From Halobacteriovorax sp. JY17 (lineage in GTDB: Bacteria > Bdellovibrionota > Bacteriovoracia > Bacteriovoracales > Bacteriovoracaceae), in contig NZ_NJER01000001.1 in assembly GCF_002753895.1 (NCBI RefSeq), positions 1,426,910-1,490,909 of the forward strand: a DNA stretch of 64,000 bases. Direction: 5' to 3'. Positions 19,405 through 28,554 of this stretch are shown here, in pieces. A model generated the notes under the pieces. It had not been told where the DNA came from, did no database searches, and saw nothing but the letters and a program-made list of their open reading frames with translations. Both the position numbers and the translations under genes were made by a program. How positions within the stretch are numbered: the first letter of the stretch is position 1; every line of letters begins with the position of its first letter.

Positions 19405-19475
19405 AAGCACGGATATTTCAATCTGATAAAATTCTTCTGCAACAAACAAATTTAAAAGGAGAATTACCCGTGCTT
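19405..19475 (+). promoter_or_regulatory. Hairpin hiding the transposase start codon
   Basis: AAGCACGG (19405-19412) and CCGTGCTT (19468-19475) are perfect 8-bp inverted repeats. The GTG start codon (19470-19472) lies inside the right arm and the AAAGGAG ribosome-binding site in the loop beside it. In a long read-through transcript the start would be masked. Confidence 0.55.
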
Positions 19476-20672
19476 GAGTCTCAGATTAACAAATTTTTAT
19501 CCTTACCTGAACTAAAATTTACCAAAAAAAGAAATCTTAAGAATTACGTTATTGAATTTGAATGCTACAAAACTAATGAGTTTGAAGTCTGCCCTAAATG
19601 TGCAACAAAATCTTATAAAGTTCATGATCGTGTTTTTGTTCACATCAAAGATATTCCAATTAGAAACAAGCTCATTTTCTTAAAGATTAAAAAGAGAAGA
19701 TTCAAGTGTCCCAACTGTAAGTCTGTTTTTAGAGAACCAATTCCTGGAATAAAAAAAGGATTTAAAACTACTCAACGATTTAGATCTCACATTCGTTGGT
19801 GTGCTTCAAACTTTTCAGATTTAAAAAGAGTTACAAAACAACTTCAATGCTCATCATGGCTTGTCTACACTGCTTTCTATGAACAGTTAAAGTTAGAAAA
19901 TAAAAAGTGGCAAAATGAATGGTCTTCAACAGTTGGTGTTGATGAACATTCCTTTCTAAGAAACTCAAAAAGTCACTCCACAGAATTTACATCTATATTT
20001 GTTGATTATAATAATAATCGTGTCCGGGAAGCTATTCTAGGAAGATCTATGGATGATTTAGAGAACTCGAGGATTATGGATATCAAAGGGCGAGAGAATG
20101 TAAAAAATGTCGTCATGGACATGTCTGGATCATATAAGAAATTTGTAACTAAGCACTTTCCAAATGCAATTATTACTTGTGATAAATTTCATGTCGTTAA
20201 ACTTTTCAATCATGCTTTAAATAGAATAAGAATTGAAGTGATGAAACATCCATATTTTTTAAAATCTAGGAACAGCCCTGTTCGAAGACTTTATCTAAAA
20301 AACCATGAGCGCTTAAGCTTCTCAGAAAGACATGTTGTAAGACATATTAATAGCCTTTTTCCAGAGCTTAAAGAGATGTATAAGTTCAAAGAGAGGATGC
20401 TGTTTATTTATAATATTAAAGGTTTCAAAAGAGCACGTAAAGCGATGACAAAGCTTACAGATGAGATGGCACAAAGTGGAAGAAAGATTGTTCAATCCCT
20501 TCGAAAAACAGTAGTGAAATGGCGACGAGAAATATTAAATTATTTTAGGACTAGACTCACTAATGGACGGACTGAAGGGTATAATCGTAAGGCCAAACTA
20601 ATACAGAGAAAGGCCTACGGGTATAGAAATTTTGAAAACTATAGGCTTCGTTTAATTTACGATTGTAGATAG
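19470..20672 (+). CDS. ISL3-family transposase
   Basis: 400-residue transposase. The N-terminal zinc ribbon has CPKCATKSYKVHDR and the second pair RFKCPNCKSVFREP, followed by an HTH region; the DDE domain has VGVDEHSF (first Asp), VVMDMSGSYKKFV and DKFHVVKLFN (second Asp region) and the C-terminal LTNGRTEGYNRKAKLIQRKAYGYRNFENYRLRL carrying the catalytic Glu. These are hallmarks of ISL3 (COG3464). GTG start after AAAGGAG. The frame is intact, so the transposase could be active. Confidence 0.95.
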   Translation: MLESQINKFLSLPELKFTKKRNLKNYVIEFECYKTNEFEVCPKCATKSYKVHDRVFVHIKDIPIRNKLIFLKIKKRRFKCPNCKSVFREPIPGIKKGFKTTQRFRSHIRWCASNFSDLKRVTKQLQCSSWLVYTAFYEQLKLENKKWQNEWSSTVGVDEHSFLRNSKSHSTEFTSIFVDYNNNRVREAILGRSMDDLENSRIMDIKGRENVKNVVMDMSGSYKKFVTKHFPNAIITCDKFHVVKLFNHALNRIRIEVMKHPYFLKSRNSPVRRLYLKNHERLSFSERHVVRHINSLFPELKEMYKFKERMLFIYNIKGFKRARKAMTKLTDEMAQSGRKIVQSLRKTVVKWRREILNYFRTRLTNGRTEGYNRKAKLIQRKAYGYRNFENYRLRLIYDCR

Positions 20673-23126: not shown

Positions 23127-23636
23127 TTAAAATTCAGACCAGAAAAAACCTCTGATTTGACCAACCTTGTAACCTACAGCTTTATCCTTTGGATATAATT
23201 TAGAAATTTTTTCTTGTAAATCAGCTTTAATATTTGTTCCATGACATTTTAAACATAGAGGCATCGTAATAATTGGTTTTAAGAGTCCTTGTTTTCCATC
23301 TTGTAATTTAACTACAGTATAAGGTTCTTTAGTTTCTTTGTTATGAAACTCTTCAATATATTTAAGCATCCATTCTTTTGGATAATTGGAAGGATTTCTA
23401 TTTTTTAAGCTGACTCTTCCAAATTGAGTGTTTGGACTTGATAAGCTCTTTTTTATTTCAGGAGCCTTTACATTACAAATTGTAACAGCCTCTAGTGGAG
23501 ATTTCTTCATGCCTTTTTGTAATTCAACTTTAAGTGCTGTTTGGAAAATTTTTATTTTTGACAAAATATCTTCTTTGTTTTCAGCAAAACTAGAATGAGA
23601 TAAAAGAAATGTCGTGAATAGAATTATTAGTTTCAT
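23127..23636 (-). CDS. DUF3365 (Tll0287-like) c-type haem protein
   Basis: 169-residue exported protein with signal peptide (residues 1-18, LLSHSSFA). The CLKCH motif in ITMPLCLKCHGTNIKAD binds one c-type haem, and the C-terminal GYKVGQIRGFFWSEF matches the DUF3365 domain. Such proteins are periplasmic redox sensors or carriers. Its start overlaps the end of the TauE gene by four bases (ATGA), so the two are co-translated. Confidence 0.85.
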   Translation of the reverse strand: MKLIILFTTFLLSHSSFAENKEDILSKIKIFQTALKVELQKGMKKSPLEAVTICNVKAPEIKKSLSSPNTQFGRVSLKNRNPSNYPKEWMLKYIEEFHNKETKEPYTVVKLQDGKQGLLKPIITMPLCLKCHGTNIKADLQEKISKLYPKDKAVGYKVGQIRGFFWSEF

Positions 23637-24436
23637 GCGTAGATTCCTTGCACTTTTACGGTGAACATTGAAGATTTACTTATTAGCGTCTCTTTATTTT
23701 TATATAGTATAAACAATCCCATGAGAATGAGAAATATAGCAAATCCTTTTTTTAAAGTATTTTGACTAATAAATCTTACAAGGTAAGAACCTATGAATAT
23801 TCCCACAATTGAACACGAACTAAATTTAAAAAGAAACTCCCAAGGTACAGTTACTTGATCAAGATAACCCATAAATCCTGTCAGTGAATTTAGAGCGATG
23901 AGTAATAAAGATGTTCCAACTGCTTTCTTCATTGGTGATTTTGCTAGTAATACTAGTGCGGGAACTATAAGGAATCCACCACCTACACCAACGACCCCTG
24001 TAATGATCCCAACAAAAATACCCTGAAGAGCAAGAAAGAAAAGGTCTTTTTTACTACTATTTTTTTCTAAGGTAGCTCTTTCTACTTCCTCTCTCCCTCT
24101 AAACATAAAAAATGCGGCGATAATCATTATAATTGCAAAAAAGATTAGTTGTGATTGACCTGAAATAAACTGGCTGATTTTGGCCCCACCAAATGTTCCA
24201 ACCATGGCAAATGGGCCAAAGATTAGTACCATTTTTAAATCTACATTCTTATTTTTAAAGTGAGGTATAACTCCGATTAAACTTGTCATCCCAACAATTG
24301 CTAGACTTAGAGCAATAGCTAACTTTGCATCCATCTTCATGACATAGACAAGTATTGGCACAGTTAAAATTGAACCTCCTCCGCCGAGTAGGCCTAAGCT
24401 TAATCCTATGAGTATAGCAAGTATGTATCCAATCAT
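23633..24436 (-). CDS. TauE/SafE sulfite/organosulfur exporter
   Basis: 267-residue inner-membrane protein with two repeated halves: [19 protein letters not shown] near the start and [41 protein letters not shown] in the middle. This is the TauE/SafE/YfcA transporter pattern, often linked to sulfite or sulfide-derived anions. Divergent from dps; an FNR-like site sits centrally between both promoters. A TATAGT -10 (24572-24567) is placed symmetrically to that of dps. Confidence 0.9.
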
Positions 24437-24566
24437 TTATTACTCCAAAGTTGCTTTTATAAAATCATCATTTCTCTTACTTGTTTAACTTACTGTTTTT
24501 ACTTCCAGATAAAGTATTTTAATAAATTATATGAGACAATCTAACTATAAATTCCTATTTAAAAAT

Positions 24567-24632
24567 ACTATAATGAAAAAAAATAAATAACTTTGAGCCC
24601 CATCAAGGTTGTTTTGTTTAATGTATTATAAT
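24567..24632. promoter_or_regulatory. Divergent dps/tauE promoters with shared FNR-like site
   Basis: TTGAG-CCCC-ATCAA occupies 24593-24606, centre 24599.5. TATAAT for dps starts 27.5 bp to the right (24627) and TATAGT for tauE 27.5 bp to the left (24572), placing the site near -41 for both, the class II activator position. The 15-mer TTTGAGCCCCATCAA is repeated before the persulfide dioxygenase gene. Confidence 0.7.
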
Positions 24633-24664
24633 TTATTTGATAACAACTATAAAGAAGATCCGTT

Positions 24665-25135
24665 ATGAGTATTAAAACTGGTATTAATGAAAGTAAAAAA
24701 AATGATATTGCAGCTGGGTTGTCTAAATTACTAGCTGAGACATATACGCTTTACTTAAAGACACACAAATATCATTGGAATGTTACAGGGCCAATGTTTC
24801 AAAGTCTTCATACGATGTTTGAAGTGCAGTATACAGAGCTTGCCCTTGCTGTAGATGAAATTGCTGAAAGAATTCGAGTTTTAGATTTTAAAGCTCCTGG
24901 TTCGTACACTGAATATTCAAAGCTTAGCTCCGTTAAAGAAGATGAACAATTAGATCGTAACTCTAATGAAATGATAGTGAATCTGCTTTCAGACCATGAG
25001 CAGGTAGTAAGAACTGCTAAAGAGATTTTACCTTTATTGGAGAATGCCAATGATGAAGGGACGAATAGTCTTCTTGGTGGAAGGATTGAGTATCATGAAA
25101 AAACTGCTTGGATGCTTAAAAGCTTATTAGGCTAA
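24665..25135 (+). CDS. dps: Dps-family DNA-protection ferritin
   Basis: 156-residue Dps protein: a 12-mer that oxidises Fe(II) with peroxide and shields DNA. Ferroxidase residues are at the canonical spacing: His37 (KYHWN), His49 (SLHTMF), Asp64 and Glu68 (AVDEIAERI). The C-terminus is short with no lysine-rich DNA-binding tail. The end overlaps the convergent regulator by four bases. Regulated by the FNR-like site 66 bp upstream of the ATG. Confidence 0.93.
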   Translation: MSIKTGINESKKNDIAAGLSKLLAETYTLYLKTHKYHWNVTGPMFQSLHTMFEVQYTELALAVDEIAERIRVLDFKAPGSYTEYSKLSSVKEDEQLDRNSNEMIVNLLSDHEQVVRTAKEILPLLENANDEGTNSLLGGRIEYHEKTAWMLKSLLG

Positions 25136-25752
25136 AGAAGATCATTAGGGGGAATGGAAATAAGTTTTTCATGGTCGAGAATTTTAAAGTCTCGACCATC
25201 CTTTTCAATATAACTATTTTTTTCTAAAATAGTCATTACACGAGCAACTGTTTCAAAAGTACTTCCTGAGTATTCGGCAATTTCTTTTCTTGTCCATACA
25301 TACTCAGGATACTTTAGTTTCAAAAAAACTAAAGACTCCGATATTCTCTTGTGTGTACTTTTATCTAATAACCCTGCCATCCTTAATTCTACTTTACCAA
25401 GATCTTTTGATATTGACTTAACAAGATCACGAAGTAGTAATGGATTTTCTGAACAAATCCTTGAACACTCTTCTTTTGATATTCTCACTACACTTGTCTG
25501 GCTAAGCGCTATTGTAGATGCATGATATGCTTCTTCTGCAAAAAAAGAACGGTGCCCCAAAATATCATTTTTTCCAAAAACTCGAAAAAATGTTTCTTTG
25601 CCTGACTCTGAGATATAAAAGAGTCCAATCATTCCTGACTCTATAAAGTATAAATTTTGAGGAAAGTCACCCTCATTATAAATGATTTGGCCACGCTTGT
25701 AGGTATGCTCAGTTTTGTGTTTAATATGTGGTTTTACGTTAATATAAAACAT
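25132..25752 (-). CDS. CRP/FNR-family regulator of the sulfur/redox module
   Basis: 206-residue regulator with a cyclic-nucleotide-fold sensor (residues 15-110) and a C-terminal HTH (150-190). The recognition helix STFETVARVMTIL has Glu167 and Arg171 in FNR-like spacing (ExxxR), matching the TTGA half-sites found upstream. There is no N-terminal iron-sulfur cysteine cluster; only Cys96 and Cys100 (EECSRIC) are present, a possible thiol switch. The gene sits between dps and the dioxygenase operon, and its own promoter overlaps the site at 25775-25788, suggesting autoregulation. Confidence 0.88.
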   Translation of the reverse strand: MFYINVKPHIKHKTEHTYKRGQIIYNEGDFPQNLYFIESGMIGLFYISESGKETFFRVFGKNDILGHRSFFAEEAYHASTIALSQTSVVRISKEECSRICSENPLLLRDLVKSISKDLGKVELRMAGLLDKSTHKRISESLVFLKLKYPEYVWTRKEIAEYSGSTFETVARVMTILEKNSYIEKDGRDFKILDHEKLISIPPNDLL

Positions 25753-25774
25753 TTTTCACCCATAAATATATAGT

Positions 25775-25788
25775 TTGAGCCCCATCAA
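25775..25788. promoter_or_regulatory. FNR-like site between the regulator and dioxygenase operon
   Basis: TTGAG-CCCC-ATCAA, identical to the site at 24593. TATAGT at 25811-25816 is a likely -10 for the rightward operon (29.5 bp from the site centre). Leftward, the site overlaps the expected -35 region of the regulator gene, so activation to the right and repression to the left are predicted. Confidence 0.68.
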
Positions 25789-25849
25789 AGTATTTTCTTT
25801 TAAAGCACTCTATAGTTATATTAATTAAATAATAACCTAGGAGATAGAT

Positions 25850-26710
25850 ATGTCACACAAATTAAAAGCCTTCTTTGATAAGGATACTAGTACGTTAACA
25901 TATATAGTTTATGACGAAAAAACTAAGGATTCAGTATTAATTGACTCGGTGCTTAACTATGATCCTGCTGCCTCTCGATTGACCTATGCGTCAATAGATC
26001 AAGTTCTCGACTTCGTTGAGGAGATGAGCCTTAAAGTTCACTATGTACTTGAGACTCATGCTCATGCAGATCATTTAACAGGAGCTTCTGAAATTAAAAA
26101 AAGGATTCCAAGTATAAAAATTGGTATTGGAAAAAATATAACAAAAGTTCAAGAAGTTTTTGGAAATATTTATAATCTTAAAGATCTTAATACTAATGGA
26201 GTCCAATTTGATGTTCTATTGGAGGAAAATAAGCCTTTAAAGGCAGGAACGATTGAGATTAAAACAATTTTTACTCCGGGACATACTCCAGCATGCTCGT
26301 CGTACTTAATTGATGATATGCTCTTTACTGGAGATGCACTTTTTATGCCTGACTTCGGTACTGCCAGATGCGACTTTCCCGGAGGAAGTGCGAAAGAACT
26401 TTATCATTCAGTTCATGAAAAACTATATAAATTGCCAGATGATACTAGAACATTTACTGCACATGATTATCAACCCAATGGACGTGAGCTTCAGTATAAA
26501 TCAACAATTGGTGAGCATAAAAGTCGAAATATCCAGTTAAAAGCATCAACAACAGAGGAAGAATTTATTCGATTTAGAAATGAAAGAGATTCAACTTTAA
26601 CTGCACCACGACTTTTATTGCCAAGTATTCAATTAAACATTAGTGCAGGAGAGCTTCCAAAAGCTGAAGACAACGAAAGTCACTACTTAAAAATTCCTCT
26701 AAGGAAATAG
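25850..26710 (+). CDS. Persulfide dioxygenase, ETHE1/Blh-type metallo-beta-lactamase fold
   Basis: 286-residue non-haem iron enzyme that oxidises glutathione persulfide to sulfite. ETHAHADHLTGA gives His70, His72, Asp74 and His75; FTPGHTPACSSYL gives His145; FTGDALFMPDFGTARCDFPGG gives Asp162 and the family's substrate loop. The C-terminal KSRNIQLKASTTEEEFIRFRNERD is typical of the Blh subgroup from bigR operons. AGGAG precedes the ATG. First gene of a probable operon with transport and phosphatase/rhodanese-like genes. Confidence 0.9.
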   Translation: MSHKLKAFFDKDTSTLTYIVYDEKTKDSVLIDSVLNYDPAASRLTYASIDQVLDFVEEMSLKVHYVLETHAHADHLTGASEIKKRIPSIKIGIGKNITKVQEVFGNIYNLKDLNTNGVQFDVLLEENKPLKAGTIEIKTIFTPGHTPACSSYLIDDMLFTGDALFMPDFGTARCDFPGGSAKELYHSVHEKLYKLPDDTRTFTAHDYQPNGRELQYKSTIGEHKSRNIQLKASTTEEEFIRFRNERDSTLTAPRLLLPSIQLNISAGELPKAEDNESHYLKIPLRK

Positions 26711-26720
26711 GAGATTGCAA

Positions 26721-27134
26721 ATGGAAAATATATTATACCCATTGGGTGGTGGAATATTAATTGGTATCTCTAGTACTATTTTACTTGCAGGTATCGGTCG
26801 AATTTCTGGGATAAGTGGAATTTTATCTTCAGTTATTTCAAGACCAGCAAAAGAACATTTTTGGAAATATAATTTCCTACTGGGACTTCTTATTGGAGGG
26901 GGAATGACTTATGTTTCATCGCCTCAACTTTTTAATTATTCAGTTAATGATAATTTAATCAAAGTCATCATTGCAGGATTACTTGTGGGGTTTGGTACAA
27001 GGCTTGGAAACGGTTGTACGTCCGGTCATGGGGTTTGTGGCATGTCTCGAATGGCAAAAAGATCAATTATAGCAACTATTACTTTTATATTAGTAGGAAT
27101 GATAACTGTAACTATAGAGGGGCTTATAAAATGA
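26721..27134 (+). CDS. YeeE/YedE-type thiosulfate transporter, first half
   Basis: 138-residue membrane protein with about four segments. It carries the transporter motif GTRLGNGCTSGHGVCGMSRM with its conserved cysteines, which relay thiosulfate or persulfide sulfur across the membrane in YeeE. A full YeeE is about 350 residues; here the two halves are separate genes. ATG 26721 follows AGGAG, while a TTG at 26715 is rejected. Overlaps the next gene by four bases. Confidence 0.88.
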   Translation: MENILYPLGGGILIGISSTILLAGIGRISGISGILSSVISRPAKEHFWKYNFLLGLLIGGGMTYVSSPQLFNYSVNDNLIKVIIAGLLVGFGTRLGNGCTSGHGVCGMSRMAKRSIIATITFILVGMITVTIEGLIK

Positions 27135-27538
27135 AAGCGCAAATAATAAGTTTAGTTTCGGGTATTCTCTTTGCCATTGGACTGTCGATTTCAGGAATGA
27201 TAAACCCTGAAAAGGTGAGAGGTTTTTTAGATATATTAGGCGACTGGGATTACTCTCTTGTATTCGTTATGCTTGGTGCTGTTAGTTTTAATTATTTTTC
27301 ATTTAAATATTTAAAAACAAAGAAGCCGATATGTGCAGATACACATTTTCTTCCAAAATCAAGCAAGGTTGATAAACAACTTATATCAGGAGCAGTTTTA
27401 TTTGGTGCGGGATGGGGCCTTCTTGGTATTTGTCCCGGGCCAGCGATAGTAAACTTAGTAACCCTTAATTCAAGTATTATCATTTTTATATTAGCTATGC
27501 TCGTTGGAATGGGAGCATATAAAGTTTATGAGAAGTGA
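27131..27538 (+). CDS. YeeE/YedE-type transporter, second half (DUF6691)
   Basis: 135-residue membrane protein, the partner of the preceding gene. FAIGLSISGMINPEKVRGFLDILGDWDYSL and GWGLLGICPGPAIVNL are the second-half motifs, with the conserved Cys in ICPGP. The frame is open from 27014 but the ATG overlapping the upstream stop (ATGA) at 27131 is the natural start. Together the two probably import or export a reactive sulfur species for the dioxygenase. Confidence 0.88.
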   Translation: MKAQIISLVSGILFAIGLSISGMINPEKVRGFLDILGDWDYSLVFVMLGAVSFNYFSFKYLKTKKPICADTHFLPKSSKVDKQLISGAVLFGAGWGLLGICPGPAIVNLVTLNSSIIIFILAMLVGMGAYKVYEK

Positions 27539-27544
27539 GGAATT

Positions 27545-28030
27545 ATGAAATGTTTTAATTTAACAGATATTGAAGATAAGAAAGAATCAATCCTTTTTGA
27601 TCATTTTATTCGAGTTGATAATATATATATTGCATCAAAGGTAATATCTGATGAACAAGTAGACTATTTGAATTCATTAGGAATTAAAGTTGCAATTGAT
27701 TTAAAGGGAAATAATGAAACGCTATTTAATGATAAGGAGCAATTTGAAATAAAGGGAATAAAGTATATTCATTTTCCAATAACAGATATTTCTAGCTTAA
27801 CCTTTGATCAGGTACAAGAGTTTAGTGAAATTCTTAATGAAAATGAATCACCGAAAATAGTATACTGTGCTTCTGGGAACAGAGTTGGAGCATTAATGGC
27901 ACTTCATGCCTCGATGGTTTGTGGTCATCCAAGGCAAAGAGCGTTTGGTTTTGGTGTCAGAATTGGGATGATAAATGAATCAACAAAAAATCAAGTTTAT
28001 GAAAAAATTTTCAAAGGAGATAAAAGATGA
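27545..28030 (+). CDS. DUF442 (beta-lactamase-hydrolase-like) phosphatase/rhodanese-like protein
   Basis: 161-residue cytoplasmic protein of the dual-specificity-phosphatase fold. The signature VYCASGNRVGAL has Cys108 and Arg113 (C-X4-R, one shorter than true phosphatases), the DUF442 pattern fused to dioxygenase domains in Blh proteins of other bacteria. A sulfurtransferase role is favoured by context. Overlaps the next gene by four bases. Confidence 0.85.
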   Translation: MKCFNLTDIEDKKESILFDHFIRVDNIYIASKVISDEQVDYLNSLGIKVAIDLKGNNETLFNDKEQFEIKGIKYIHFPITDISSLTFDQVQEFSEILNENESPKIVYCASGNRVGALMALHASMVCGHPRQRAFGFGVRIGMINESTKNQVYEKIFKGDKR

Positions 28031-28554
28031 GAAGAATAATATTATTGATAATAGGTGTATTTGTACTTAATGCTTGTGCTCATAAAAAAGGTAAGAGTGA
28101 AAGTGATATTAGAATAGGAGAAAATTTACAATCAAATAGATATGGAACCATATATTTTTCTAAACAACCTGATGATAAAGATTGGGCTAAACTAAAAGAA
28201 CAAGGCTTTGAAACAATTATCAATTTAAGAGAACCAAGCGAACATGATGAGAAAAATGAAAGAAAGTTAATAGTAAAATCAGGAATGACTTATGTTAATA
28301 TTCCATTCCCAAAAAAAATGAAACTAGACAATAACTATGTTTCAAAAGTCACGAAAGAAGTAATGAAAAACAAGGATAAAGGTAAAATACTTATTCATTG
28401 TAGTAGTGGAAACAGAGTCGGTATTTGGGTTGGTGCTCATTTTTATAAAGATCATGGTTTCTCAAAAAAAGAATCAATAAATACGGCTAAAGCTCATGGA
28501 TTAAATAAGCCAGAAGCTATTAATAAACTAAAAAAATATTTTGAAAATAACTAA
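28027..28554 (+). CDS. DUF442-like lipoprotein
   Basis: 175-residue protein with lipobox LNAC (Cys17), so anchored in the envelope. The same phosphatase-like site recurs as LIHCSSGNRVGIW (Cys125, Arg130). It is a second, exported version of the preceding gene, related in motif but divergent elsewhere, and could act on persulfides or phosphate esters in the periplasm. No family member with this location is known to me. Confidence 0.8.
   Translation: MRRIILLIIGVFVLNACAHKKGKSESDIRIGENLQSNRYGTIYFSKQPDDKDWAKLKEQGFETIINLREPSEHDEKNERKLIVKSGMTYVNIPFPKKMKLDNNYVSKVTKEVMKNKDKGKILIHCSSGNRVGIWVGAHFYKDHGFSKKESINTAKAHGLNKPEAINKLKKYFENN

Follow-up and report, generated by a model that had tools for sequence, protein, structure and literature searches.

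The window, a 64,000-nucleotide stretch of the Halobacteriovorax sp. JY17 genome, carries a ferritin-like dps gene among genes of sulfur-related families and a Crp/Fnr-family regulator gene. Positions below are those of the window unless a contig or locus is named.

23127-23636, minus strand: Tll0287-like protein (Pfam), downstream of tauE and overlapping it; homologues occur in several relatives' clusters
23633-24436, minus strand: tauE/safE-family transporter (Pfam PF01925)
24665-25135, plus strand: dps, ferritin-like (Pfam PF00210; NCBIfam Dps models below cut-off)
25132-25752, minus strand: Crp/Fnr-family regulator (Pfam) with Cys96 and Cys100, an ETVAR recognition helix and no N-terminal cysteines
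25850-26710, plus strand: metallo-beta-lactamase-fold, persulfide-dioxygenase-like protein (NCBIfam Blh, ETHE1 4chl)
26721-27538, plus strand: split YeeE/YedE-type transporter pair (Sulf_transp, DUF6691; Pfam)
27545-28554, plus strand: two BLH-type proteins (phosphatase-like / sulfurtransferase; Pfam, NCBIfam)

The sulfur gene cluster and its regulator

The protein at 25850-26710 has the sequence of an ETHE1/Blh-type metallo-beta-lactamase-fold protein, matching ETHE1 4chl at 7.7e-31 and the dioxygenase half of NCBIfam Blh at 4.6e-96. It is nevertheless below the cut-off for the full-length, bifunctional Blh, the transferase half of which is a separate gene here. The neighbouring families suggest a sulfide- and persulfide-handling cluster with its own regulator, a function assigned from the families. 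An earlier note on this DNA had spoken of sulfur export by the TauE protein; the family match (PF01925) holds, but export comes from the family name only.

The regulator belongs to the Crp/Fnr family, with a cNMP-binding-like domain (PF00027, 1.1e-20) and a Crp-type helix-turn-helix (PF13545, 3.4e-09). It is not FNR proper, the oxygen sensor: the N-terminal [4Fe-4S] cysteine cluster is absent from it, its only cysteines are Cys96 and Cys100, and it scored 48.6 against the Fnr model, whose cut-off is 228. Its sequence has the marks of FNR-type DNA recognition, with ETVAR at residues 167-171 and TTGA half-sites in the DNA. A recognition helix of the form E--[SAT]R pairs with TTGA half-sites. The helix E[TS]VxR was found in 31 of 33 regulators, and the two without it (L059 and L060) had zero sites within one mismatch. 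A correlation between recognition-helix residues and the TTGAG-CCCC half-site was sought by eye and not found.

The C-x3-C pair formed by Cys96 and Cys100, a candidate thiol switch, is shared by roughly half of the regulators in the alignment (Cys96 in 17/33, Cys100 in 18/33). Judging from these residues, the regulator may respond to a thiol-based sulfur signal. Many regulators lack the two cysteines, so such a signal would not be universal.

A paralogous sulfur cluster lies on contig C4 of the same genome (L054, G000:C4:55000-71000). Its regulator is 53% identical to that of the window, and its operators are spelled differently, as TTGATCTAGATCAA and TTGATTAAAATCAA. Two insulated copies of the cluster may therefore coexist in one genome. 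In a tree of the regulators, L048, L158 and L157, all from other genera, are placed with the window copy (support 0.95-0.97), and L051, from a genome of the same genus, is placed with the C4 copy (support 1.0). By these groupings, the window cluster looks horizontally acquired. A transposase-like ORF, as judged from its translation, lies upstream of the cluster (19470-20672) and may bear on its arrival.

The operator between tauE and dps and its identical copy

The start codons of the divergent tauE and dps genes are at 24436 (minus strand) and 24665 (plus strand). The gap between them contains a 14-base FNR-like site centred at 24599.5, whose sequence and position had been given correctly in the earlier note. 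The gap between the regulator and dioxygenase genes contains a second, identical operator.

24592-24606, no strand: FNR-like operator TTTGAGCCCCATCAA, with core TTGAGCCCCATCAA at 24593-24606, common to the divergent tauE and dps
25774-25788, no strand: second operator, identical TTTGAGCCCCATCAA, in the regulator/dioxygenase gap; an equivalent site is present in 24/32 relatives' clusters

The exact 15-mer has these two copies and no third in the 3.47-Mb genome. They are 1.18 kb apart, each in a divergent gap of one cluster. When 129 genomes of the family were searched, the source included, it was found in only 2 of the 128 others, with one copy each. The copy at 25774-25788, absent from the earlier note, is the stronger evidence for a link to the regulator.

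A copy with one mismatch at C1:15575 was dismissed as lying inside an ORF, and there were 11 further copies with two mismatches. The degenerate pattern TTGAKN4MTCAA occurred at 83 places in the genome, and among 15 of these that were fetched, 1 was intergenic. In the 64-kb window, bare TTGAN6TCAA with one mismatch allowed was found 79 times against 75 expected; with no enrichment, the motif by itself is no proof.

The site is set above chance by its two exact copies, their rarity in the family, the symmetric -10s described below and its context. We defined an extended pattern as the site followed by nGT, 17-19 bp and TANNNT, with either direction of a site entering the count once. It had 8 distinct matches in the whole genome: those toward dps, tauE and the dioxygenase gene in the window, one toward tauE on C4, and 4 within ORFs, one of them an ORF of just 61 codons. 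The dps/tauE site, which has nGT on either flank, was the sole match in both directions. Among 58 site-like places, some inside genes, listed around the 32 relative clusters and that of the window, only this site and L165:6314 had nGT on both flanks together with a -10-like score of at least 8 at +21 or +22 on both sides. By our reading, the second direction of L165:6314 would put a -10 at the regulator's own start.

Spacing of the -10 hexamers in relatives and in a second genus

The following hexamers were considered as -10 elements.

24629-24634, plus strand: TAATTT, likely -10 of dps, 29.5 bp from the operator centre, in the phase of 34/40 relatives' sites
24565-24570, minus strand: TAGTAT, likely -10 of tauE, 29.5 bp from the operator centre, in the same phase
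24627-24632, plus strand: TATAAT, -10 of dps in the earlier note, 27.5 bp from the centre
24567-24572, minus strand: TATAGT, -10 of tauE in the earlier note, 27.5 bp from the centre
25811-25816, plus strand: TATAGT, -10 of the dioxygenase operon, 22 bp past its site, in class II phase

The equidistance claimed for TATAAT and TATAGT is real, the near edges of both being 27.5 bp from the centre. Symmetric -10s of that quality arose in about 0.16% of Markov-resampled flanks, a post-hoc figure. A scan for consensus promoters gave 8 hits against 6.8 expected, with zero at the dps/tauE site.

For comparison, we collected 32 clusters with orthologues or nearer homologues of the regulator (L048-L060 and L157-L175, including the C4 paralogue; L061-L064 were left out of the counts). 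We picked sites that differ from TTGATN4ATCAA by one mismatch or none, paying no regard to promoters. They were present in 24/32 regulator/dioxygenase gaps and upstream of 16/24 tauE genes, leaving 8 gaps and 8 tauE genes without a site at this threshold. At 34 of the 40 sites, the distance from the site to the start of a -10-like hexamer (weighted hexamer score of at least 8) was exactly 22 bp, although the relatives are not statistically independent. Other offsets between 10 and 35 had such a hexamer in 0-8 of up to 40 sites; +20 was at background with 4/40. On the activated side, nGT was present at 26/40 sites, against 5/40 on the mirror side. An offset of +22 corresponds to 29.5 bp from the operator centre to the first base of the -10, which is the class II position of -41.5.

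The same divergent order of tauE (72%), site (TTGAGCTCCGTCAA) and dps (88%) was found in a second genus, in genome G087 (L213). This locus was found via the dps protein, whereas searching with the DNA of the dps/tauE gap missed it. That search gave short, weak matches in 12 other genomes, which were set aside as presumed AT-rich noise. Over their first 45 bp, the flanks in G087 are only 47% and 56% identical to those in the window. Even so, hexamers are present at +22 on both sides, TACCCT toward dps and TAGAGT toward tauE, and no other offset from +16 to +27 reached a score of 7 on either side. No -10-like hexamer was found at +20 of the G087 tauE/dps site on either side. With shuffled flanks, all four sides scored at least 8 at a common offset between 17 and 25 in 0.07% of trials, and at +22 in 0.005% (about 5e-5). 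The site, its duplicate, the phase and the conservation in two genera are established as features of the sequences.

From the +22 phase in relatives and its conservation in G087, we reassigned the -10s to 29.5 bp; TAATTT (24629-24634) and TAGTAT (24570-24565) are the likelier elements by sequence comparison. They match the consensus less well than the hexamers at +20, which are 2 bp off the phase of the relatives. Class II spacing is found for dps (TAATTT), tauE (TAGTAT) and the dioxygenase operon (TATAGT). The leader of tauE would measure about 120 nt. The earlier statement of a site near -41 for both genes survives as a class II position, although its own hexamers would give -39.5 and those at +22 fit better. 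Its symmetry and its idea of two-way activation are also retained, since the predicted activating phase points toward both genes in the window and in G087. Of 23 E. coli promoters that FNR activates and whose starts are known, 19 lie within 4 nt of -41.5 (PMC3688515).

Proposed regulation of dps and tauE and its alternatives

We consider it likely, with some reserve, that the 25132 activator has its operator at the dps/tauE site and serves two class II promoters from there, in a sulfide/persulfide regulon into which dps was recruited. A dimer of the Crp/Fnr-family protein from 25132-25752 would be centred at -41.5 for both genes, and one such dimer per operator would act as class II activator for dps, tauE and the dioxygenase operon alike. 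The operator at 25774-25788 would activate the dioxygenase operon and probably also damp the regulator's own transcription. It lies 22 bp from the regulator start codon, too near to act as a class II site for a transcript with a normal leader in that direction, so autorepression is likely there. At the dps/tauE operator, both polymerases would depend on one dimer and on upstream DNA that overlaps, and alternate rather than simultaneous firing of the two promoters would be expected. The regulon would deal with sulfide or persulfide stress, and a single bound protein probably switches on tauE and dps within this sulfur-detoxification response. Activation at this operator, and the signal acting there, we infer from the sequences.

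The link of the site to the 25132 regulator, proposed in the earlier note, gains from the identical second site beside the gene and from sites of the same kind in orthologous clusters; binding of this regulator at the dps/tauE operator is the presumed consequence. The main result against this regulator as sole binder is from G087, where no orthologue was found in an 88%-complete assembly of about 440 contigs. The best hit there (32%) is FNR-like and has cysteines near its N-terminus. A dioxygenase homologue (53%) is located elsewhere in that assembly, and between dps and YeeE (L213:8413-8775) the regulator gene is missing, as is the dioxygenase gene. This gap retains an operator-like site, as though left over from a deletion. 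The site (TTTGAGCCCCAGCAA) precedes YeeE and has no hexamer at +22, with hexamers at +20 and +26 instead.

The absence in G087 of an orthologue agrees with binding by a different FNR-type protein, since that genome combines the site with an FNR-like protein. The JY17 genome encodes two candidates, a Cys-rich FNR-like regulator at C1:329543 (CxxC...C near the N-terminus) and the C4 cluster regulator. FNR itself favours TTGAT-N4-ATCAA, which also counts for this explanation. However, the C4 cluster owns the operators described above, the 25132 gene has the exact operator at its side, and sites of this kind are usual in its orthologous clusters, so another binder is unlikely. It is quite unlikely that the operator serves mainly dps, its tauE side being a by-product of palindromic symmetry and AT-richness and the true tauE promoter lying nearer the gene. 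The distances would fit: the operator is 58 bp from the dps start, which is normal and promoter-like, and 156 bp from the tauE start, whereas the distance to tauE is 34-55 bp in 16/16 tauE-directed sites of relatives (at most one mismatch). In addition, about 11% of positions in the tauE/dps gap score as -10-like. Against this, relatives often have such a site with tauE (16/24), and in G087, despite the divergence of the gap, nGT and a hexamer at +22 are still present on the tauE side; there too the tauE start is far from the site (205 bp).

A chance palindrome in AT-rich DNA would agree with the chance-level count of the bare degenerate pattern in the window, but not with the identical duplicate, the cluster-wide occurrence, the fixed phase or the conservation in G087. 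It is highly improbable; the dps/tauE site is real. Finally, the dimer could be at -39.5 for both genes, as the earlier hexamers at 27.5 bp imply. TATAAT and TATAGT are nearer the consensus, and a site up to 4 nt from -41.5 counts as class II according to PMC3688515. With +20 at background in relatives and not conserved in G087, this placement is rather unlikely.

The association of dps with this operator appears from locus comparisons to be a rare recruitment. We examined 52 distinct dps loci (30 + 22, L110-L138 and L187-L207 among them; L131, cut off at a contig end, was dropped). TTGAN6TCAA was present upstream of dps in the scanned region of 2/52 loci, both adjoining tauE. The palindrome ATAG-N7-CTAT, which we take to be OxyR-like, was present in 15/52, and in the first 30 loci it was found 8 times against 0.42 expected. 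Neither pattern was found upstream of the other dps of this genome (C1:1375679, 69%, L176). These counts suggest that dps switched regulators on arrival beside the tauE operator, which would have placed it under the control of the 25132 regulator, where many relatives have the OxyR-like site instead. A stress gene may thus change regulators through a change of neighbours. In E. coli, polysulfide and peroxide stress had an equal effect on dps (PMC6831875), which makes its link to a sulfur regulon sensible.

A wider proposal, which we hold only tentatively, is that a Crp/Fnr protein with Cys96 and Cys100 and without Fe-S cysteines senses persulfide and controls an entire family of sulfide-detoxification clusters, and that the move of dps in one lineage made a one-way class II site an exactly symmetric two-way switch coupling iron storage to persulfide stress. 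El-Robh and Busby are said to have found in 2002, in a systematic plasmid study, that E. coli CRP at a single target activates divergent promoters. The present case is similar in that one Crp/Fnr-family dimer would serve two divergent promoters, but here the equidistant site is natural, occurs in two genera and belongs to an uncharacterised Crp/Fnr regulon. Our regulator also differs from E. coli FNR in lacking N-terminal Fe-S cysteines and in its predicted targets, sulfur genes and dps. BigR is a regulator of the ArsR type. As in the bigR-blh operon of Xylella and Agrobacterium, Blh-type sulfur transferase/dioxygenase functions are beside a dedicated regulator, although BigR is described as a repressor (PMC5823870) and an activator of Crp/Fnr type is proposed here. 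The TTGAT-type half-sites and the -41.5 position are shared with E. coli FNR class II promoters (PMC3688515). Cmr of Mycobacterium tuberculosis, a redox-responsive Crp/Fnr-family protein, is described as using a single site for its own gene and a divergent gene (PMC5499769), so one site of this family serving divergent genes is already known. In that account, Cmr represses one cmr promoter and activates others, whereas the two genes that would be activated here, both from class II promoters, do not encode regulators. Bidirectional promoters that share -10 elements commonly have starts 10, 18 or 23 bp apart, and polymerase competition is documented for them (PMC12825309). Divergent transcription from one pseudo-symmetric element, with polymerase competition expected, is a likeness; the dps and tauE -10s differ in being about 60 bp apart, around the regulator site.

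A literature search, mostly of titles and abstracts, returned no description of a Crp/Fnr-type persulfide sensor or of such a regulon, and the sensors named there are of other families. Within that scope, the symmetric arrangement in two genera and the recruitment of dps into a Crp/Fnr-linked sulfur regulon seem to be new, and our results point to a sulfide/persulfide regulon of Crp/Fnr type. The locus offers a natural, phylogenetically supported case in which a single Crp/Fnr-family site has class II spacing toward each of two divergent genes, and in which competition of two polymerases for a single activator can be tested directly.

A scan of genome contigs gave distant homologues alone, mostly from Planococcus, and sulfur genes were not beside the homologues in the two Planococcus loci inspected. 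In L061 and L063 (G012 and G021), other Crp-like genes lie directly 3' of a BLH2-like gene, without an adjoining dioxygenase gene; they may form another branch of this group of regulators.
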